A stretch of DNA of 64,000 bases, taken from IMG/VR virus record IMGVR_UViG_3300032516_000007, positions 51,042 to 115,041 of that record; one strand, written 5' to 3'. Positions 3,534 through 51,699 of this stretch are shown here, one piece after another. Position numbers and translations under genes: made by a program. This DNA comes from a virus. Position 1 is the first letter of the stretch. Every line of letters begins with the position of its first letter. The notes under the pieces were generated by a model. It ran no database searches. It saw only the letters and a program-made list of their open reading frames with translations, and was not told where the DNA came from.

Positions 3534-6346
3534 ATCACTTCATCAGCAAGACTATTAGGTACTATCATCCTTACTTACCAACTCACACCCTTCGTAAGGC
3601 TGAAGAGCCCGGTGAGTTCCGTGGTGGGGACCCCGAGGAGATGCGTCTGAAGAAGGAAGAAAAGCAAACTGAGCTAGGTGAATCTGGGGATGCTGGAGAA
3701 GATCAGGGTGGGGAAGAGCCAGATCCTGCCGATGTGGAGGAGGCTCAGCAGGCAGATCAGGATAAGTCAGAAGGGAAATCTGTCAGTATTGGGAAAGCGA
3801 TTACCACAGCCATGGGTGCGGTTGAGGCTTCTCCATGGCCACCCAACACAACGGATTATCCTTCCAAGGATCGGAATGGTAATCCAGTTCATGACAATGT
3901 GGACTTTCACTTTCGTGGGGTCAAACAGCCCTGGATTGAAGTGGGTCCCCCTCGTCAGGGTCCCAATCAGAAGAAGCCCTGGTCAGAGGTTCTGGGTCTT
4001 CCCCCATTGATGGCTCCTTCTGGACCTCCCTATTGGCGTCAGAAGCTTCTACAGGAACGAAGGGATGAGCTTGGGATGAGTCCCAGACCCAGGCTCATCG
4101 AACCTACTGATATGTACGCTATGCAGTCTGTGGCAAAGGCTTTCGATGATCTTCTAGAGAAGGCAAAGGCGACGCTTGGCGGGGAGTCTGCTGAACACCA
4201 CCCATATATTCCTGGATATAAGGATAAGATCAAAACACCTGTTTCTTTGAATGTTGATAGCTTAGATCATGTTCCTGAGCATATAAATAAACATGTCTCT
4301 AAGATTGTTGGTCCTCATTGGAAAGATCATATTCATAGATATGTCAAAGAAGTTAACAGTGGGGAGGGTTTAAGTTTTACTCCTTCTCCTGTTCTTCGAG
4401 CTATGGAAGATTGGATGGGAGGTGGTGGTAAGTTTCCACATAAACGAGGGGCAGGGCAGGCTATTGTGTCCAATGATGTAAAAGCTTTGAATCATCTGAC
4501 ACAACGTGCAGGTCATGCTGGGTGGCATCGGTCTGGTGTAGTTGCTGGAGTTTTATCCAGGATGCCTTTGAATCATGAAGCTATCAAACATCAAACTGGT
4601 GGTAGTATTCCAACGCATCTTTATCGTGGTAGTATGTATGTTCCCCATGCGGCAAAGGTTGGTGATGTTTTTCATCTTTCTCCATCTTCATTTAGTTCCG
4701 GTAAACTTGTGGAGCCATTCAAAGACTATCCAGGGCTTATGAAGATGAGGTTACCGTCCAGAGGATTTAGTTTGGGTAATCACAGTTTGTGGCCAGAACG
4801 GGAGGTACTTGTTTCTGGTCATTATAGAATCCATAATATATCTTATCCTCGTGGTCGTACTATGTTTCATGTTGAAGAGATTCCTCATGGTGAAGTTAAT
4901 AAAGCTATTGAGAATCAATCTCAGCATGAAATGAACCAATTTATAGCTTCTCATCCTTCTGAGATGGTGTCTGCTAAAGGAGCAGAGGATATTGAGCATG
5001 TGGGGAGGGGACTTGGAAAGAGAATGGCTCCCTGTCCCTACGGAGGGGGAATCGAATGCCTTCGGCATGGTGGAGATGGTGCTGATGCTCATTACCCATC
5101 ATTCCACCATAAACATGAAGATCAATCCCTGAGTCACGAAGATGTTCTCCATCAGGAAGCTGGAAAAGATCCTGGGGAACGAACACATAGCCTTAACCAG
5201 ATGCAGAAGAAGGCTCTTGTTGGGCATGTGATGTCCAGGTACGAAAGTGAAGGTACAGATCTAGATAACCCTGATACAAGATCGAAGTACATGAAGACAC
5301 TTCGGCATATTCACGGTTATTTGGGTAAAGACGCAGAGTCAAACGCATGGAGAAAGAAAGCCATTTCGGAGTGGAAGTCCAAGATTAGTCAGTATCATGG
5401 TTCAGAGGATCAAAAGCCAGAGGGTCACCTGGCCATGGAAGCTGCTGAGAAGCAGATCGATGTGACTTGTGATTTTTCAAGGGAAGTCGGTTGGGGTTCT
5501 ACAGATAGTAAAGAGTCAGATCTTCCAGAGAAGATGTTGGAGCAAGCATTTGGTAGGCAAATGAGGATTAGTGACTTTGAGAGGGCGTATACTGTCGATG
5601 ATGATAATCTAAAACTTCCAACTCCTGATGGTGGATATGGGGCAAATATTCATCACATCAACATTGTCGAAAAGGAACAGGGCCAGTACGAGATCAATGT
5701 GATGGGGTCTATTGATTATAGTTATGGTGAGGGTAGTGAGCGGGCAGCTACATTCGTTCGAGTGATTCACTGTTCTGTTGGTGGTAAGAAGAAGCAAGAT
5801 CGTTTCATTATGGTTCACCATGACAAGATATTTGTGCTAGATGCTGATCATAGTAAGGTTGGTGGGCATCAGAACTCTGGATTGAGTACGGATTTTCTCA
5901 AGCATAGTGTTATTGAATACCAGAAATGGGGGGTTAATCAGATCACAACAAGTCCGCACTGGGTGGGTAAGTACACTTGGGCTCGAATGGGATTCCAGTG
6001 GAATGAGGAGGCTGCTGCCACTGTGGGTCGCCATATGACCAAATTTTTGATCAGTCATTATGGGATGGAGAAGAAGGCTGCTGCAAAATTGGCGGCTAAA
6101 TTTGCTGATATGCCATCCAGATTTGCTGTCAAGACGCTTTCTAATCCTCAATTGACTGAAGATGGTCAGGCATTGTTTAGATCTTTCGAGAAGAGCGAGT
6201 ACAGATGCAAGCCAGAGGAGGTTGGGAAGGCATTCCTTCTTAGTGATGGTGGTAACCAAGTTTGGATGAATGGGGGCATGGTGGACATGTCTCGGAAAAC
6301 CAGTCCTAGTTACCGTCAATTGAGGAAGTATCTGGGTTTGAAGTAG
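3530..6346 (+). CDS. ADP-ribosyltransferase-like + GNAT-like virion protein, 938 aa
   Basis: GGAG precedes an ATG that overlaps the MuF stop. Residues 1-220 are acidic and disordered. Residues about 345-450 carry the marks of R-S-E class mono-ADP-ribosyltransferases: LYRGS with R366, SPSSFSSG with S387/S389, and WPEREVLVSG with E423 and E425 (the ExE pair). Residues about 690-870 resemble a GNAT acetyltransferase: the acetyl-CoA loop is degenerate (HQNSGLS near 780), and VGKYTWARMGFQW (812-824) is well kept. The protein ends RKYLGLK. Base composition shifts to AT-rich near 4200, exactly where the disordered N-terminus ends, which suggests the enzyme part was acquired separately. Phage ART proteins such as T4 Alt are packaged and modify host targets; the target here is unknown. 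Confidence 0.7.
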   Translation: MNHFISKTIRYYHPYLPTHTLRKAEEPGEFRGGDPEEMRLKKEEKQTELGESGDAGEDQGGEEPDPADVEEAQQADQDKSEGKSVSIGKAITTAMGAVEASPWPPNTTDYPSKDRNGNPVHDNVDFHFRGVKQPWIEVGPPRQGPNQKKPWSEVLGLPPLMAPSGPPYWRQKLLQERRDELGMSPRPRLIEPTDMYAMQSVAKAFDDLLEKAKATLGGESAEHHPYIPGYKDKIKTPVSLNVDSLDHVPEHINKHVSKIVGPHWKDHIHRYVKEVNSGEGLSFTPSPVLRAMEDWMGGGGKFPHKRGAGQAIVSNDVKALNHLTQRAGHAGWHRSGVVAGVLSRMPLNHEAIKHQTGGSIPTHLYRGSMYVPHAAKVGDVFHLSPSSFSSGKLVEPFKDYPGLMKMRLPSRGFSLGNHSLWPEREVLVSGHYRIHNISYPRGRTMFHVEEIPHGEVNKAIENQSQHEMNQFIASHPSEMVSAKGAEDIEHVGRGLGKRMAPCPYGGGIECLRHGGDGADAHYPSFHHKHEDQSLSHEDVLHQEAGKDPGERTHSLNQMQKKALVGHVMSRYESEGTDLDNPDTRSKYMKTLRHIHGYLGKDAESNAWRKKAISEWKSKISQYHGSEDQKPEGHLAMEAAEKQIDVTCDFSREVGWGSTDSKESDLPEKMLEQAFGRQMRISDFERAYTVDDDNLKLPTPDGGYGANIHHINIVEKEQGQYEINVMGSIDYSYGEGSERAATFVRVIHCSVGGKKKQDRFIMVHHDKIFVLDADHSKVGGHQNSGLSTDFLKHSVIEYQKWGVNQITTSPHWVGKYTWARMGFQWNEEAAATVGRHMTKFLISHYGMEKKAAAKLAAKFADMPSRFAVKTLSNPQLTEDGQALFRSFEKSEYRCKPEEVGKAFLLSDGGNQVWMNGGMVDMSRKTSPSYRQLRKYLGLK

Positions 6347-36959: not shown

Positions 36960-39530
36960 ATGGCAAGGTCCGTCACATTCAATGGAATGACCCAGTTTCG
37001 GCCAGGTGGACTCACCAAGGTCGATGCGAGTGCTCTTGCTCAGATCAGTTTGGCGACCAATGGCATCATCGGTCTGATCGGTGAGGCTGATGGTGGGGAA
37101 CCGGGGGTGGTGGTCACCCTTGATGATCCTGCTTTGGCTAAGTCGGCTTTCCGCAGTGGCCCCTTGGCAGATGCCATTCGGGTGGTGTTCGATCCCTCAA
37201 ATGATCCTCGAGTTCCCGGAGGGGCTTTTCGATGCCTCTGTGTGAAGGCCAATCAGGGAACTCAGGCATCCCTGGTTCAGTACAACAAGATCGGAGCAGA
37301 TACGGCTGCGGCTGGTTCTACAACCACGCTCATCAACCTGACCACAGGTGCATTGGTTGCCAGTGAGATGATCGGAAACATCCTTCGGATTGGTGCGGAG
37401 GATAGACCCATCACTGCCAACGCAGTGGCTACGATCACGGTGTCTCCTGCGTTCTCAGCAGCTCCTCTGACAGGAACTGCATTGACCATCTTGGCTCCTG
37501 TGGCGACGGTCAAGTCTAGAGACTACGGACTGCACACGAATCAGATTCAACATGAGTACGAGCCTGGCGCGTCTTCGGGTCAGGCGTGGACTACCATGTT
37601 TGACAAGGTGGCTCAGATTGGGGAGGACATCGGTGGGAAGTCCTATCTCCAACTGGAGTACATTGGTCAGTCTGCTCGCGTGGTGACTGCTTCTGGAACT
37701 GCCTCAGGTGGTTCTGGAACCACCATTGTGGATGCCACAGCCACTTTCACAGGGATGATCAATTTCTTTGTGGAGATCACTTTGGCTGGTGTGATCAACC
37801 TTAGGAAGATCTCACTTACCACTCCAGCTACGACTCTGACTGTTTTGGCAATGAGTGGTACTCCTGTGGCAGAAGCGTACAGCGTCAGGAAGGGCCAAGT
37901 CCGAAACGGAACTGCCACGGCTGGTGGTGCTTCTACGATCACTTTGGAAGTTGCTCTCAACCTGGCTCTCAATGACATGGCTGGGCTGATTGTGGTCATC
38001 ACTGGTGGTACTGGTTCTGGTCAACGACGGTCCATCACTTCCAATACGGCTGGTGTGAGTTCAGTTCTCACGGTAGATCAGCCTTGGACTACCACTCCTG
38101 ATCTCACCTCCACCTATGAGATTCGCTATGCAACAGCGGCTAAGGCGACTCTTGCAGGATCACTAGGGAAGGCAACATCTCTCAAGACCTACGTGGCAGT
38201 TAACGGTGCCGTGTCAGGTCTTGACAAGACCTTCACGTTTGCCACCAACCAGACATTGGAAGAGCTAGTCGCAGCTATCAACGCCAACGTGGACTACAAG
38301 GCAACTGTCCCTGGTGGGATCAATGGCAATACCTTCTTGGTGAAGGATTTTGACTTTGATCTTGGGGATGTGGATGTGGACATTCGCAGCGACAAGGATG
38401 CAGTGGCCACTCCTCCTACTCCCACTGCCAATGTCCCTGTTCCATGGGCCAACAATTTCCGTGCTGATCTGTGGGTGATGATCCGGGACATCAACGAGAG
38501 GAATCAGAATGTCATTGCCACTCGTGCCTCTGGAATCAGCAAGGGAGCTGGCCAGGGTCGTCCCGAGTTCACTGGTGGCAGCATCGGAAACCCAGGGGAC
38601 ACCTTCAAGTACCTCACAGGTGGAACGAGGGGGACCAGTGCCAACTCCAATTGGCAGGATGCCTTTGATCTGTTGCTCAAGCAACGATGCAACTTCGTGA
38701 TTCCCCTCATCGTCCGTGATCTTGTTGAGGAGGACCTTGGATCAACGGCTACCTGGTCCTCAGTGTCTGCCCAGCTTTCAGCACACGTCAAGGCTGCCAA
38801 CGGGATCGAGAAGACAGAGCGTGGTGGTGTCATTGGGTATCGTGGCACCAAGACCAATCTGATCTTGAAAGCCAATGCCCTCAACAACACGGACATCCAG
38901 ATCGTCTCTCAGAAGCCCATGTGTCTGGATGTGGGGGGCACCCTGAAGGTGATGGATGAGTGGGCCATGGCAGCTCTGGCCGTGGGCATGCGAGCTGGAA
39001 TGCCTGAGGTGGGTGAGCCTCTGACCCACAAGTACCCCAAGACCACAGAGATTGCCCAGGACAGCAGTTGGGACCCCTCGGAGAGGACGGATGCCAACCA
39101 GTTCATCCAGGCTGGTATCCTCTTCGCGGAGACGATCAAGGGCAAGGGCATTCGCTGGGTGCGGGACATCACCACGCATGTTCAGGATGACAACCTTGCC
39201 TACATGGAGGGAAGCGTTCGTGATGTGGTTCGCTTCGTGTCCTATGGTCTTCGCACTCTACTGGAAGATCGATTCACGGGCGTCAAGGCCACCCCCACCA
39301 ATGCCACAGGCATCAAGGACACAGCTTCGGAATACCTGGAGCTGGCTCGGTCCCAAAACCTCATCGTGGACAGCACTGACGAGAGAGGTGCTGTCATCAA
39401 GGCATTCCACAATCTGCGGGTGAAGATCAGCGGAGACGTTGCAACCATCCGAGTAGAGATCTTCCCTGTGGTTGGGATCAATTTCCAACTCAATGAAATA
39501 TTCTTGCAGCTACCAACACAGGCTGCATAA
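36960..39530 (+). CDS. Tail sheath protein, 856 aa
   Basis: AAGGAG precedes the ATG. The N-terminus starts like a sheath subunit. The C-terminal 250 residues match the contractile sheath family: RTDANQFIQAGILFAETIKG, IRWVRDITTHVQDDNLAYME, DVVRFVSYGLRTLLEDRF, and the final strand NFQLNEIFLQLP. The length is well above T4 gp18 (659). Extra beta domains are inserted in the middle (about 120-400), one of them (about 320-400) containing GTGSGQRRSIT and VDQPWTTTPDLTSTYEI, the same module as in the terminator candidate. A contracting sheath fixes the phage as a myovirus. High confidence on the family. Confidence 0.9.
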   Translation: MARSVTFNGMTQFRPGGLTKVDASALAQISLATNGIIGLIGEADGGEPGVVVTLDDPALAKSAFRSGPLADAIRVVFDPSNDPRVPGGAFRCLCVKANQGTQASLVQYNKIGADTAAAGSTTTLINLTTGALVASEMIGNILRIGAEDRPITANAVATITVSPAFSAAPLTGTALTILAPVATVKSRDYGLHTNQIQHEYEPGASSGQAWTTMFDKVAQIGEDIGGKSYLQLEYIGQSARVVTASGTASGGSGTTIVDATATFTGMINFFVEITLAGVINLRKISLTTPATTLTVLAMSGTPVAEAYSVRKGQVRNGTATAGGASTITLEVALNLALNDMAGLIVVITGGTGSGQRRSITSNTAGVSSVLTVDQPWTTTPDLTSTYEIRYATAAKATLAGSLGKATSLKTYVAVNGAVSGLDKTFTFATNQTLEELVAAINANVDYKATVPGGINGNTFLVKDFDFDLGDVDVDIRSDKDAVATPPTPTANVPVPWANNFRADLWVMIRDINERNQNVIATRASGISKGAGQGRPEFTGGSIGNPGDTFKYLTGGTRGTSANSNWQDAFDLLLKQRCNFVIPLIVRDLVEEDLGSTATWSSVSAQLSAHVKAANGIEKTERGGVIGYRGTKTNLILKANALNNTDIQIVSQKPMCLDVGGTLKVMDEWAMAALAVGMRAGMPEVGEPLTHKYPKTTEIAQDSSWDPSERTDANQFIQAGILFAETIKGKGIRWVRDITTHVQDDNLAYMEGSVRDVVRFVSYGLRTLLEDRFTGVKATPTNATGIKDTASEYLELARSQNLIVDSTDERGAVIKAFHNLRVKISGDVATIRVEIFPVVGINFQLNEIFLQLPTQAA

Positions 39531-39588: not shown

Positions 39589-40659
39589 ATGGCAATCGCG
39601 ATTCCGGCTCTGATCGATACTCAACTGACTGCGTTTCGAACCTCGATGCAACCAAAGCAGGATTCTGTCACGAAGACTGAATCCTTCGTGGTGGCCCCAG
39701 GAGTGCTTGGCAACCGAGCTGCTGATCTTCTGGACATCCTCGCGAATCTGGTTGATGTCACGGGTCTGGTGACGACTGGCACCCATGTGGCTGCTGATGC
39801 AGCCAATGGTGTGTCATCGCCAACCGCAACCAACCAGGCCACCGCAGACACGATGGCTGATGAGATGAAGGGTGACTACAATGCCCACCGTGTTGTGACC
39901 CCTGCGGTCCATGGGGCAGCGGACGCCACCAATGTGGTGACAGCTCTGGGCAGTGATGGGAGCGAGGCCAGGCTGGTTCTGCTGGCCAACGACATTCGAG
40001 TCCAGGTGCTTGCTCACATGGCTCGTGTGACCACTGCTACGCATGGTGTGGCTGATCCAAATGTGGTCACGGTGGCAGCCTGTACCAACACTGCGACGGC
40101 AGTCACTCTCATGAATCACCTGAAGCTGATCTACAATGCTCACATCGCGAACATCAACGGTGTGAGTGCCACTGGCGTTGCTGATCTTGGTGCCTACACG
40201 GGGGTGAATGCTCTCGTGGGAGCCAAGGTGACGTTCACGGGGAACATCACGACAGCTTTGACTGGGAAGTACGCCTTTGTGATCTCCAACACGACGGGCG
40301 TTCTTTACTTCGCTCCTGGATCACTTCCCGCCTCGCCCAGAACTGGTGACACCTATTCGGTGGAGTTCGCAGCCATCGATAAGGATCTGGCGGCACTGAG
40401 GGGTGGCAAGGGTCTTGGGGACAGCGCATCGAATCCCTACGGTCCTGGTCCCTCGCTCATCAACGCTCTGATGGTCATGATCGCCCAGCTTGGGGGAGCG
40501 GTTCCCTCCTACCTGACTGCCGTGGCAGCTCAGCCGTTCGGGATTGGGAGTCCCCATGCAGCCAACCCGTCGGGTCGTGGGTCAGCAGCCATGATCCTCA
40601 TGGCTGAGGCCATGCTGGCGGCTAGAGACACGGTGGCTGCCTACACCAAGCCTGCGTAG
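39589..40659 (+). CDS. YNAH-repeat structural protein between sheath and tube, 356 aa
   Basis: AAAGGAG precedes the ATG. Residues about 60-210 hold three repeats like those in the 671-residue protein: DEMKGDYNAHRV then AVHGAADATNVV; NDIRVQVLAHMARV then THGVADPNVV; and LKLIYNAHIANING. The C-terminal part is Ala/Gly-rich and helical. Sharing this repeat with a capsid-region protein suggests a common lattice-binding element. The place between sheath and tube suggests a tail protein, possibly a second tube or a sheath-associated layer. Function unknown. Confidence 0.6.
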   Translation: MAIAIPALIDTQLTAFRTSMQPKQDSVTKTESFVVAPGVLGNRAADLLDILANLVDVTGLVTTGTHVAADAANGVSSPTATNQATADTMADEMKGDYNAHRVVTPAVHGAADATNVVTALGSDGSEARLVLLANDIRVQVLAHMARVTTATHGVADPNVVTVAACTNTATAVTLMNHLKLIYNAHIANINGVSATGVADLGAYTGVNALVGAKVTFTGNITTALTGKYAFVISNTTGVLYFAPGSLPASPRTGDTYSVEFAAIDKDLAALRGGKGLGDSASNPYGPGPSLINALMVMIAQLGGAVPSYLTAVAAQPFGIGSPHAANPSGRGSAAMILMAEAMLAARDTVAAYTKPA

Positions 40660-40904: not shown

Positions 40905-41035
40905 ATGCCGATCATCGCACCAGATCAATCCAACGTGAAGGGTCCCGGTCAGGTCTTCACAGGTCCACGAGCCCTCTTCAAGATCGGAAAAGATCCCGTG
41001 GGCTACGCTGGCAATGTCTCTGGTGAGGAAACCAT
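40905..41035 (+). CDS. Tail tube protein, exon 1
   Basis: AGGAG (40893-40897) precedes the ATG. The 43 complete codons (MPIIAPDQSNVKGPGQVFTG, then KIGKDPVGYAGNVSGEET) match the N-terminus expected for a contractile-tail tube protein. If translated straight on, the frame stops at 41040-41042. Joined to exon 2 at 42039, the reading frame is kept (codon AT|C) and the protein becomes 155 residues. The exon ends CCAU, which can pair with GUGG in the intron (U-G at the splice), as group I introns require. This is a split gene, not a pseudogene. Confidence 0.75.
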
Positions 41036-42038
41036 CAAGTAAGGTGGCCCAGGAGAGAGATCTCTTGAGGAGAACCGCGTGAATTGCTGGAACCCTACAG
41101 TGTGTGGCAACACCATGGGAATCAGCAGCCAAGCTCCTGGGGAAACCTGGGAGAAGGTTCAACGACTACCCGATGGGGAAGTCTTAGTAGAGGGCTCTAT
41201 GAGTCCATCGAAGCTGTACGAAAAGTTGACGCGACATGAGCTTCGCTCAGCAGTGATCGGAATGACCTTGGGTGATTTCAATCTTCAACTCCATGGTGTG
41301 AATGTGAGAGCACAAACCTCACATTCGCCCAACGTGCGTGATTATGTGGAGCTGAAAGGAACCATCCTGAGGCAGATTCCGGGTCTTGGATACTCTTTCA
41401 AGGATGTGGTTCAGGTGAATCGCAAGCTTGGCAAGAGTTATCCTCAGATCAAGATCTGGACCACCACTCATCCATTTCTAACCAAGATCAGAGAGAGGAT
41501 GTACAGACCTGAGAAGCAGCTCAATAAAGGGCTTCTGGAAAGTCTTACTCCTCTTGGTCTGGCCTTGTGGTTCATGGATGATGGTCACTTGTCCCTTCAT
41601 CATAATGTGAAGAGATACAGTACCGACACAGATCGATCACCTTCCGAGAGAAGCATCAGTTCGAGACCATTGATCATGAATACTCATTCATTCTCAGAGG
41701 AAGAGAATGAAGTGATCTGTTCATGGTTGATGTCTAGATGGGGTATCGAAAGCCAAGTGAAGTGGTCTAAAGGATTCTTCGTGTATATGAACACGGAGAA
41801 TGCACGCAGGTTCGTGGACATTGTTCGTCCTTACGTTCTTGCTGTGCCTTCGATGCACTACAAGATCAACTTTAAGTACAAGAATGCTTCCCCAGAACTC
41901 CTTCGGTTCAATATTGAATACTGGACCATGGAGGAAGGGCACGAGCGCGCGGCATCCTGTGTGCGACAGGATGGTGATATAGTCTGAGCCTCTGGGAAAC
42001 CAGAGGAAGTGGAGTCTAAACAACTCCACGGTAACAAG
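41036..42038 (+). ncRNA. Group I self-splicing intron in the tail tube gene
   Basis: All four conserved core elements of group I introns are visible in order: P (AATTGCTGGAA, 41082-41092), Q (AATCAGCAGCC, 41120-41130), R (GTTCAACGACTA, 41157-41168) and S (GATATAGTC, 41976-41984). R and S pair as GACUA/UAGUC (P7). P3 can form between CCGCG (41075-41079) and CGCGG (41948-41952), and P8 between CATCCTGT and ACAGGATG. Downstream hairpins include CCTCTGG-GAAA-CCAGAGG (41989-42006). The intron would end in G at 42038. The endonuclease gene lies between R and the P3 3' strand. Exact ends are inferred from frame and base pairing. Confidence 0.85.
41199..41987 (+). CDS. LAGLIDADG homing endonuclease inside the intron, 262 aa
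   Basis: I start at ATG 41199, after AGAGGG; the frame is open back to 41079 but that part overlaps the ribozyme core. Two LAGLIDADG helices are present: SAVIGMTLGDFNLQ and PLGLALWFMDDGHLSL, each ending in the acidic residue that binds metal. Between and after them are typical beta-rich DNA-contacting regions (VYMNTENARRFVDIV). One chain with two motifs acts as a monomer. It would cut intron-less copies of the tube gene and so spread the intron. The stop codon overlaps the S element (GATATAGTC then TGA), so the end of the coding sequence and the ribozyme core share bases. Confidence 0.88.
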   Translation: MSPSKLYEKLTRHELRSAVIGMTLGDFNLQLHGVNVRAQTSHSPNVRDYVELKGTILRQIPGLGYSFKDVVQVNRKLGKSYPQIKIWTTTHPFLTKIRERMYRPEKQLNKGLLESLTPLGLALWFMDDGHLSLHHNVKRYSTDTDRSPSERSISSRPLIMNTHSFSEEENEVICSWLMSRWGIESQVKWSKGFFVYMNTENARRFVDIVRPYVLAVPSMHYKINFKYKNASPELLRFNIEYWTMEEGHERAASCVRQDGDIV

Positions 42039-42375
42039 CTGCGATTACGAGCCAGTTGACTGCCTTGATCTTCTGGAAGTGAAGGAGCATGTGCCAGTGG
42101 CATATCGCTGCTCCCTCAATGCCACGGTGTTTCGGATCATTGGGCAGTCGCTCAAGAAGGTGGGAATCTTCCCCACGATCCAAAGCATCATCACCGCTGA
42201 GTCACTGACAGCTTCCATCGAAGATGCCAAGCCCGTTGAGGGTGGACGTAGGACCATGGCGTTCTTCCAGGGCGTGCGGGCCAGTGGCCATTCTTGGGAT
42301 GTCACATCTCGAGGACTGACTGCTGACAACGTGACCTTTGTCGCGATCAGAGTCGAGGATGAGTCAGAACGGTAA
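42039..42375 (+). CDS. Tail tube protein, exon 2
   Basis: Continues exon 1 in frame as ICDYEPVDCLDLLEV, giving a 155-residue tube protein. The sequence pattern fits tail tube proteins: a strand pair at the exon junction, then VPVAYRCSLNATVFRIIGQS, KVGIFPTIQSIITAESLTAS and a final SHSWDVTSRGLTADNVTFVA strand. A GTG at 42079 allows translation of a shorter piece, but it lacks a ribosome site and would lose the first strands. It forms the inner tube inside the sheath, built around the tape measure. The order sheath, tube, chaperone, tape measure supports the call. Confidence 0.75.
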
Positions 42376-42430: not shown

Positions 42431-42922
42431 ATGGATCAAGGAATGATGACCGCAGTACCCATGCCTCGGATTTTGGATTTCTTCATCAAGCACACGACCC
42501 ATGATGGGAGAGTGCTCGAGGGAACCTTCACCACCAAGAAGCTCAGCATCAAAGGCATGGCTGGGATTCAGGTTCGCAAGGTTCAGCTCAACGGAGGCTA
42601 CTACTTCGATGAGAAGAAGCCTGGGATGGGGATTGATGAGGAGACGGACTGGACCAACTACATGATTGCTCATCTTGAGCAATCATTGATCAGAAAGCCC
42701 ACGTGGTGGAACCTGGATGAGCTTGATGACCTTGATCTCATCCTATCTGTGTTCAAGAAGGTCGCTACGTTCGAGAACTCATTTGCCTCCCCTCTCCGAG
42801 GAGCCGCTGTCATTGTTCAAGGCAGCCCGGTTGATAGCGGCGGCTCGAGTGAAGGATCCGGGGCTGCTGGACGTGTTGCGGCGGTGGGTGGAGGACAAGT
42901 TCAAGCTTCCCTGGACCCATGA
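42431..42922 (+). CDS. Tail assembly chaperone, short form
   Basis: AGGAG precedes the ATG. This gene stands where the gpG/gpGT chaperones stand, between tube and tape measure. The first ~118 residues are well-ordered protein (LDFFIKHTTHDGRVLEGTF, helices to LSVFKKVATFENSF). The last ~45 residues (GGSSEGSGAAGRV-like) look like an out-of-frame shadow, because the reading in another frame becomes protein-like there. The short product may be released at 42922, and the long product made by frameshift into the frame ending at 43220. Function: chaperone that coats the tape measure during tail assembly. Confidence 0.65.
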   Translation: MDQGMMTAVPMPRILDFFIKHTTHDGRVLEGTFTTKKLSIKGMAGIQVRKVQLNGGYYFDEKKPGMGIDEETDWTNYMIAHLEQSLIRKPTWWNLDELDDLDLILSVFKKVATFENSFASPLRGAAVIVQGSPVDSGGSSEGSGAAGRVAAVGGGQVQASLDP

Positions 42923-43220
42923 GGCTATCCAAAGTCAGACGCTTCTAGAACTACTGACTTCGTACTGGGAGGATTACTACGAGGAACACAGGCTCGAAGC
43001 CAGTCGAGATGAGAAGGGTGAGGTCACTTTTGGTACTGGTGATCCTTACATCGATAAGTGGGAACAAGAGATAGCTATGGGTCTCGAACCTGATCTTCTG
43101 GAGGACTTGCCATCCTGGCATCGCGATAAAGCAAACCCCAAAGAAGAGAAATCAGAAGATCAGAGTGATGTCTCCAAGGATGGCTTCAAGGACGACTACA
43201 GCCGGTTGGCCTCTGGTTGA
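42792..43220 (+). CDS. Tail assembly chaperone, frameshift extension
   Basis: From about 42792 this frame is protein-like: LSEEPLSLFKAARLIAAARV, then LRRWVEDKFKLPWTHEAI and an acidic C-terminus. It lacks a convincing start codon of its own. Moving from the upstream frame into this one needs a +1 or -2 shift. The run TCCCCT (42788-42793) would let a proline tRNA slip from CCT back to CCC (-2), as happens in Mu-like phages, which use -2 rather than the -1 of lambda. It carries one TTCTAGAA copy at 42943. The slip site is inferred. Confidence 0.55.
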   Translation, partial: LSEEPLSLFKAARLIAAARVKDPGLLDVLRRWVEDKFKLPWTHEAIQSQTLLELLTSYWEDYYEEHRLEASRDEKGEVTFGTGDPYIDKWEQEIAMGLEPDLLEDLPSWHRDKANPKEEKSEDQSDVSKDGFKDDYSRLASG

Positions 43221-49813: not shown

Positions 49814-51699
49814 TGCCTCCTCGTGATCTCATTGCAAGGTCCACAACTTCATTCCCAGACCGTAGGTTCTGGTCGGGGCAGGTGGAGTACACCACCAGAA
49901 TATCGGCCATGTACTCCATCGGGATCATTGATGTCAAAACGTTTGAGTTTTGGATATGCAAGATTAACCCATCCGTGAAGGGCTTATCTCGAGCTGTTTA
50001 TCAGTTCACTACTCCACCTCAGAGCATTGAGACTGTAGAGCAGGCAGCAACGACGATTGTCCCGACACAGGGGGGTGGGAAGTTTGTCGAGAGCCAGGGA
50101 AATCTGTTCAAGGACGTTAGAATCTCAGGCACAGTAGGATTTCGGCCAAACATTCCGTCAAAGGAGTTGTTCCCTGGTTTGGCTAAAGCTGGGGGTCCAT
50201 CGATTGGTACACCTACGTCATTTCTTCCAGACTTCTTGACCAAGGATAATAGGGGTCTTGATCCAAAAGAGGTTACCGGGTTTGATGAGATGATGTTCTT
50301 GAGGAACATTTTTAGGGCTTATTTTGATATCAAAAGTAGTGATGTTGATGCCAATCGTGTAGCACTAGTTTGGCTATATGATAAGGAGAGTGAAGCCTAT
50401 GTAGTGGAGCCAATCTCCTTTACTACTAACAGGGACAAAGGAAACCCATTAGGTTGGACCTACAATATCCAGCTTCGAACTCTATATAAGTTGGATGTTG
50501 TCCGTCCCTATGAAACAGATTCAGTGAACCTTTTCTCAGCTATTGGTAATGCTCTTAATATGCTTGGATCGATTGTCAATGGTATCGTTAGGGCTCTCAA
50601 GACAATTGCTAATTTCATGGATTATCTAAAGAACTTTCCAGCGAATCTTATTCAATCAGTTTTCTCTGGATGGACTGATATCCTTGGTGGGATTGCAGCA
50701 ATCCGTACTGCTGGAGGTGGATTTGATGATTATGTTACAGAGTCTATAGTTCGCACTATGAAATCTCAGACAACGCAACTCCTTTCTGCTCTCGATGACA
50801 AATACAATCAGCAGCAGCAACCGGCATTTGGCCATAGTGTTCCCTACATGATGGAAGGGGAACTCGGATTGGTTCGGCATAGCCTGAGGCAACTTGATCG
50901 GTTTGCCACAGCGATTCTGACCAACGATGGGCTCTGGAAAGAGAACAAGAACATCCAGGTCTCGGATTACAGTCGATCCTATTTGACGGAGACCGGAGAG
51001 GCTTCACCCACAGCGGGATCGCCTCTGAATCCAACCAACATCAACATGCCAGATACGGCTGTTGAGCAAGAAGTGACAGGTGGGGACACTATTCGCACTT
51101 TGGCTCTGAAGTACCTGGGGGATGAGGCACAGTGGAAGAAGCTGGCACTCATGAACAACCTGAAGCCTCCGTACATTTCGGCTGTGGGGGGTGATGGGGT
51201 TCTAAAACCAGGAGGTACCATTCTCATCCCTCGGACCACTGCTTCAACAGTGGCACTGTCTGTTTCTAGAACCGTGAATCCGGATGCTTCCTCTGAAGCG
51301 TTGCGCCCAATGATGAAGAGATATGGACGTGACTTGAGATTGCTAGAAGCTGGGGGTGAGTTGAGGGACTTCACAACAACATCAGGTGGGGACATCGATG
51401 TTGTTGAGGGTATCGACAACGTGATTCAGGCAATCAAGATCAAGTTCTCTACGGAGGTGGGCGAGCTTCCAACCCATCCTAGTTTTGGTGCCAAGTATTC
51501 AGTGGGAACGAAACTTGGGATGGCAACAGTCCAAGAGTTTGCTCTCAACACCAGACGAACATTCTTTCAAGACCCACGAATTGAAGAGATCAACTCTATG
51601 GAGATCTTTGCAGTTGGAGATCAGCTTTTCAACAAGACTCGCCTCAAGTTGATTGGAGCTGATGCAGAGATTCCCTTCACGTTCTCAGTGAGGAGATAG
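49813..51699 (+). CDS. LysM + gp25-like baseplate wedge fusion, 628 aa
   Basis: The ATG overlaps the upstream TGA and has AAGGAG upstream. Residues about 1-400 are mixed alpha-beta with hydrophobic helices (NALNMLGSIVNGIVRALKTI). A LysM domain lies at about 415-478 (VTGGDTIRTLALKYLGDEAQ, then a LKPGGTILIP strand). A GPW/gp25-type wedge domain ends the protein (about 510-628: VEGIDNVIQAIKIKFSTEVG, then LPTHPSFGAKYS and the final FNKTRLKLIGADAEIPF). LysM modules in phage tails bind wall or other tail parts (gp53-like); gp25 is the sheath-initiating wedge. The fusion puts both in one chain. Confidence 0.75.
   Translation: MPPRDLIARSTTSFPDRRFWSGQVEYTTRISAMYSIGIIDVKTFEFWICKINPSVKGLSRAVYQFTTPPQSIETVEQAATTIVPTQGGGKFVESQGNLFKDVRISGTVGFRPNIPSKELFPGLAKAGGPSIGTPTSFLPDFLTKDNRGLDPKEVTGFDEMMFLRNIFRAYFDIKSSDVDANRVALVWLYDKESEAYVVEPISFTTNRDKGNPLGWTYNIQLRTLYKLDVVRPYETDSVNLFSAIGNALNMLGSIVNGIVRALKTIANFMDYLKNFPANLIQSVFSGWTDILGGIAAIRTAGGGFDDYVTESIVRTMKSQTTQLLSALDDKYNQQQQPAFGHSVPYMMEGELGLVRHSLRQLDRFATAILTNDGLWKENKNIQVSDYSRSYLTETGEASPTAGSPLNPTNINMPDTAVEQEVTGGDTIRTLALKYLGDEAQWKKLALMNNLKPPYISAVGGDGVLKPGGTILIPRTTASTVALSVSRTVNPDASSEALRPMMKRYGRDLRLLEAGGELRDFTTTSGGDIDVVEGIDNVIQAIKIKFSTEVGELPTHPSFGAKYSVGTKLGMATVQEFALNTRRTFFQDPRIEEINSMEIFAVGDQLFNKTRLKLIGADAEIPFTFSVRR

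Follow-up and report, generated by a model that had tools for sequence, protein, structure and literature searches.

What interrupts a phage tail-tube gene, and how might its product still be made? The question is raised by a locus in a 64,000-nucleotide stretch of viral DNA (the window; positions 51,042 to 115,041 of IMG/VR record IMGVR_UViG_3300032516_000007), in which the tube is interrupted at residue 44 and the exon 1 frame, continued downstream, meets a TAA stop at 41040-41042. We are highly confident that the interrupting sequence is a mobile group I intron, inserted in the gene for the tail tube in an uncultured phage with a contractile tail, and our analysis of the window indicates an element that appears intact and has its own DNA-cutting homing enzyme (Table 1).

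Table 1. Features of the interrupted tail-tube gene and its intron, in window coordinates.
Feature	Position	Strand	Details
Exon 1, tail-tube gene	40905..41035	+	ATG to ...GAAACCAT; homologous to N-terminal 43-44 residues of uninterrupted L002/L039, L006/L040, L007/L044
Group I intron	41036..42041	+	1006 nt; predicted boundaries (preceding U41035, omega-G 42041); RF00028 44.5 bits; borders from uninterrupted homologues and L011
P1	41032..41047	+	Exon CCAU (41032-41035) with guide GUGG (41044-41047); U.G at splice site
P2-like hairpin	41050..41067	+	41050-41056/41061-41067; five two-sided compensatory pairs, window vs L011
P3 5' strand	41075..41081	+	CCGCGUG; seven pairs with 41946-41952
P4-P5-P6 domain	41084..41168	+	Ends in R; RF00028 alignment and consensus fold
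P element			GAATTGCTGGAA; present
Q element			AATCAGCAGCCAAG; present
R element	41157-41168	+	GTTCAACGACTA; P7 5' strand GACUA 41164-41168
Start-codon hairpin, candidate P7.2	41192..41206	+	GGGCUC-UAU-GAGUCC; contains endonuclease AUG and part of its Shine-Dalgarno
LAGLIDADG homing endonuclease ORF	41199..41987	+	262 aa; motifs IGMTLGDFN and ALWFMDDGH; start common to L011
P3 3' strand	41946..41952	+	CGCGCGG; within 3' end of ORF
P8 hairpin	41953..41973	+	CAUCCUGU/ACAGGAUG; L011 CAUCCAU/AUGGAUG, compensatory
S element	41976..41984	+	GATATAGTC; P7 3' strand UAGUC 41980-41984; ORF stop TGA next, at 41985
P9 hairpin	41989..42006	+	CCUCUGG-GAAA-CCAGAGG; two-sided changes at 6/7 pair positions in related introns
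P9.1 hairpin	42009..42029	+	GUGGAGU/ACUCCAC; compensatory in L011
Exon 2, tail-tube gene	42042..42375	+	Homologous to C-terminal 110 residues of uninterrupted tubes

A tail-tube gene in two exons

The first-pass annotation had named the host gene as the tail tube, an assignment borne out by uninterrupted homologues and by a PDB profile match. A scan with the joined protein recovered the uninterrupted relatives L002, L006 and L007 and a profile scan further ones, to a total of 13 distinct sequences, the profile of which matched tail tube 8q01 over positions 5-137 (E 1.1e-5). The sequence of 8q01 is 100% identical to Staphylococcus phage K ORF50 and 88% identical to the Twort protein encoded next after the sheath gene, and Twort orf142 is distantly homologous to the window tube. 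An AlphaFold2 model of the uninterrupted tube L039 reached a pLDDT of only 50 and was not used for fold searching. The single tube returned no tblastn matches among INPHARED phages, and a scan of GTDB genomes found no tube relatives.

Upstream, a tail sheath gene (36960-39530; PHROG 279, 1.7e-46) is followed by a gene at 39589-40659 and then by the tube start at 40905. The intervening gene encodes a 356-aa protein in which H(x)2-3AD(x)N-like motifs recur and for which Pfam and PHROG gave no family match. On the 3' side of the tube are two overlapping ORFs, 42431-42922 and 42690-43220, the second shifted to frame +1 (or -2) relative to the first and both with relatives in at least seven related loci; the first has a weak match (4e-4) to a tail-assembly-chaperone PHROG. 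The pair looks like candidate programmed-frameshift tail chaperones.

An arrangement without any intron, in which two small genes flank a free-standing endonuclease and the second part of the tube starts at GTG 42079, seems to us scarcely credible. An ORF from 42079 to 42375 does exist mechanically, but each homologue is one continuous protein, the homology of exon 2 reaches upstream of 42079 to 42042, and a ribozyme core is present.

The ribozyme core and its splice junctions

A covariance-model match together with compensatory pairing upholds the earlier identification of the insertion as a group I intron. The search with RF00028 that the first-pass annotation had proposed, carried out on 1.5 kb, was positive in its E-value (1.1e-9 for a match at 41026-42006), but the score of 44.5 bits lies below the gathering score of 50, so that a default Rfam scan does not report RF00028 for this intron. 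The low score is probably due to the 0.8-kb ORF within the core; the homologous intron at the identical site in the related locus L011 scores 53 bits, above the gathering score. RF00028 found no second intron elsewhere in the 115-kb virus record.

The P, Q, R and S elements and the P3, P7 and P8 pairings, previously reported without helix coordinates, are all present, as is P9, making up a P3-P9 core with conserved P, Q, R, S and P7. Seven P3 pairs form in 10/10 introns checked, with two-sided changes at four pair positions. For nine of the ten introns, P3, P7, P8 and P9 are paired in 100% of cells, a percentage biased by the hand assembly of alignment blocks to fit the structure; more telling are the changes that affect both partners of a pair, seen at 11 pairs (28 cells) and equalled in 0 of 500 shuffles, and the slide control, in which no more than two such pairs arose. 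The sole L010 difference in P9.1, A42013G, leaves a G.U pair. Raw cmscan/Rfam output placed the P3 3' strand and P8 inside the ORF; this placement was rejected because CGCGCGG/CAUCCUGU, after the main part of the ORF, pairs perfectly and covaries.

The ORF lies between the P7 5' strand (R) and the P3 3' strand, and its last codons encode the P3 3' strand, P8 and the P7 3' strand. Introns whose ORF overlaps the core are already known (PMC3984707), and the whole LAGLIDADG intron group found here is built in this way; the L011 intron has the same layout too. The intron is IA-type and probably IA2, a subgroup recognised by P7.1 and P7.2 joined by G-U-A (PMC3428280). In the window UUAGUAGA lies between candidate hairpins at 41164-41183 and in the 41190-41208 region, although the first of these uses P7 nucleotides in that fold.

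The 5' splice site had been correctly placed after CCAU, at 41035. A U41035.G41044 pair marks this site and G42041 the probable 3' end, supported by a compensatory change in L011, where P1 joins exon GCAU to guide GUGC in place of CCAU/GUGG. The L011 guide sequence AAUCG-GUGC pairs not only with exon 1 GCAU but also with exon 2 CGAUU, in a perfect 5-bp P10; the window P10 is weak, with one adjoining pair or a bulged UUAC/GUAA.

By RNA features alone the 3' end of the intron is ambiguous between 42038 and 42041. Joining 41035 to 42039, as in the first-pass annotation, yields GEETI-C-DYEPVD (predicted joined sequence CTGCGATTAC), whereas the 42041 site yields GEETI-DYEPVD within 154 aa (predicted joined sequence ...GAAACCAT to CGATTAC..., i.e. 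...ACCATCGATTAC; junction-spanning tube peptide SGEETIDYEPVD). All 13 distinct uninterrupted tubes read E(T/S)(I/V)-(D/Q)YEP with no residue between, and the joined L011 tube (...GAGCAT|CGATTAC...) has the same junction solution as 42041|42042. These homologues point to 42041|42042 as the most likely 3' splice site; the earlier 42038|42039 is probably three bases early, and the tube probably has 154 rather than 155 residues, because the site shifted by +3 nt inserts no Cys.

We regard it as quite unlikely that the same intron is instead spliced at 42038|42039, in which case an additional Cys would follow Ile44 in a tube of 155 residues. Its end, AACAAG, would then resemble the L011 end AACAAAAG, and exon 2 CU could, as read from the sequence, form a 2-bp P10 with AG (41042-41043). 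Against this, the added residue is missing from 13/13 distinct uninterrupted relatives and from the joined L011 tube, at a place where the protein is very conserved, and with 42041 as the end the CU preceding omega-G could form P9.0 with AG 41988-41989. L011 does not conserve P9.0, which was for that reason dropped as proof of the 3' site.

The endonuclease and the mobility of the intron

The intron ORF is a LAGLIDADG endonuclease gene, as had been claimed: it matches LAGLIDADG_2 in Pfam (E 7e-24, on the longer GTG ORF) and PHROG 11023 (3.5e-14), and its best PDB sequence match is I-SceI (E 8e-8). The acidic residues of both motifs are present; across the family alignment D128 is invariant and D26 almost so. 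A GTG start at 41079 was set aside in favour of ATG 41199, the likely start, which has a Shine-Dalgarno upstream and is shared with L011. Compared with the window endonuclease, that of L011 is 58% identical (dN 0.32, dS 2.1, saturated) and that of L010 differs by a dN of 0.005 and a dS of 0.030; by these measures the ORF is under purifying selection, the gene being kept. L010, which comes from another sample, and L005 (97.7% identity over 2.9 kb) are one contig; L003, L004, L008 and L009 show 100% identity with the window across this region and hence are not independent.

A degraded, splicing-dead remnant, with the tube supplied by another gene or never made, would be compatible with the sub-threshold Rfam score and with splicing being predicted from sequence. 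We nevertheless consider it very improbable: the core helices are intact and show compensatory change, the unbroken ORF evolves under purifying selection, the sheath neighbourhood revealed no second tube homologue, and L010 retains the intron with 11 substitutions and no frame-breaking change. We infer, in preference, an intron capable of self-splicing; that it would need to splice efficiently, as stated earlier, is a reasonable expectation.

At the same site, the tube gene of L011, itself divergent, carries a divergent intron whose guide sequence has changed to match. In the tube tree the two intron-bearing tubes fall in separate clades, each with uninterrupted closer relatives, and the absence of the intron from these, as read from their sequences, is as expected of a mobile element. 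The tree needs two changes, and no bootstrap tree needs only one. Such patchy presence fits horizontal spread or repeated loss, and leaves recent homing unproven.

The endonuclease AUG lies within a hairpin of the folded intron, so that its translation is probably held down while the ribozyme is folded. The pairing evidence comes from two sequences, the window and L011, whose counterpart at 3985-3999 (GGAUUC-AAU-GAAUCC) shows one two-sided and one one-sided change, and, set against their shuffles, the hairpin regions have only moderately better folds (z about -1.8 and -1.9). Intron ORFs that overlap the core have been described as tightly controlled (PMC3984707), and stem P6b has been described as holding the ribosome-binding site in a different phage intron (PMC3428280). 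A full switch, in which the folded ribozyme buries the start codon in a P7.2-like hairpin and ribosomes reading the ORF unfold the core, is a possibility that we put forward tentatively and with some doubt; tube production and homing would then be mutually exclusive for each RNA.

The proposed life cycle would begin with the transcribed intron folding into a ribozyme which, guided by P1 (exon CCAU with GUGG), would cut after U41035 and then after G42041. Exon joining would, on this anatomy, give the 154-residue tube. If it behaves like others of its family, the endonuclease would cleave tube genes that lack the intron, close to the conserved EETI^DYEP codons, and repair of these genes would copy the intron into them, while the start-codon hairpin may limit translation from the folded intron.

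Comparison with known introns

Eight IMG/VR introns (L018, L019, L024, L027, L030, L033, L034 and L035) have, like that of the window, a LAGLIDADG ORF between R/P7-5' and P3-3' and the same arrangement of P3, P8 and S; endonucleases of this group are about 27-32% identical to the window's. In L035 a tRNA gene (4381-4453) lies about 340 bases upstream of the LAGLIDADG group I intron. Group I matches in L014 (5806-6693, 64.7 bits) and L021 (6761-6970, 102.5 bits) fall outside the LAGLIDADG match that recruited each locus, possibly reflecting several introns within one region.

The omega intron of yeast 21S rRNA likewise encodes a LAGLIDADG enzyme, I-SceI, but only about 120 residues align with the window endonuclease, and host, gene and ORF position are unlike. 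Among phages, the capsid-gene intron of mycobacteriophage LittleE also carries a LAGLIDADG gene (PMC3706429), although the host gene differs and the ORF is I-CreI-related and on the opposite strand; the Nitunavirus DNA polymerase intron (PHROG 11023) is a further phage group I intron with a LAGLIDADG gene, again in another host gene (PMC11878797 Table 2).

PMC11878797 and PMC10136302, which cite Landthaler & Shub 1999, describe Twort orf142 as a gene for the tail tube that holds three group I introns, of which introns 2 and 3 belong to subgroup IA2. On that description the likeness to the window is considerable in kind: in contractile-tailed phages, homologous tail-tube genes placed directly after that of the sheath hold group I introns. 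In the Twort group the breaks fall close to the C-terminus (about residues 104-126 of the 8q01 query), whereas the window break aligns with about residue 36 of 8q01, in a highly conserved stretch, and no LAGLIDADG ORF of the window type was seen in the Twort group. With a large ORF in the catalytic core and an Rfam score below the cut-off, automatic annotation would split and misname such a tube gene. Group I introns in the Twort tail-tube gene were already known; what is new here is the site, the endonuclease and the lineage, a second one, far from the Staphylococcus Twort group, with a group I intron invading its tail-tube gene.
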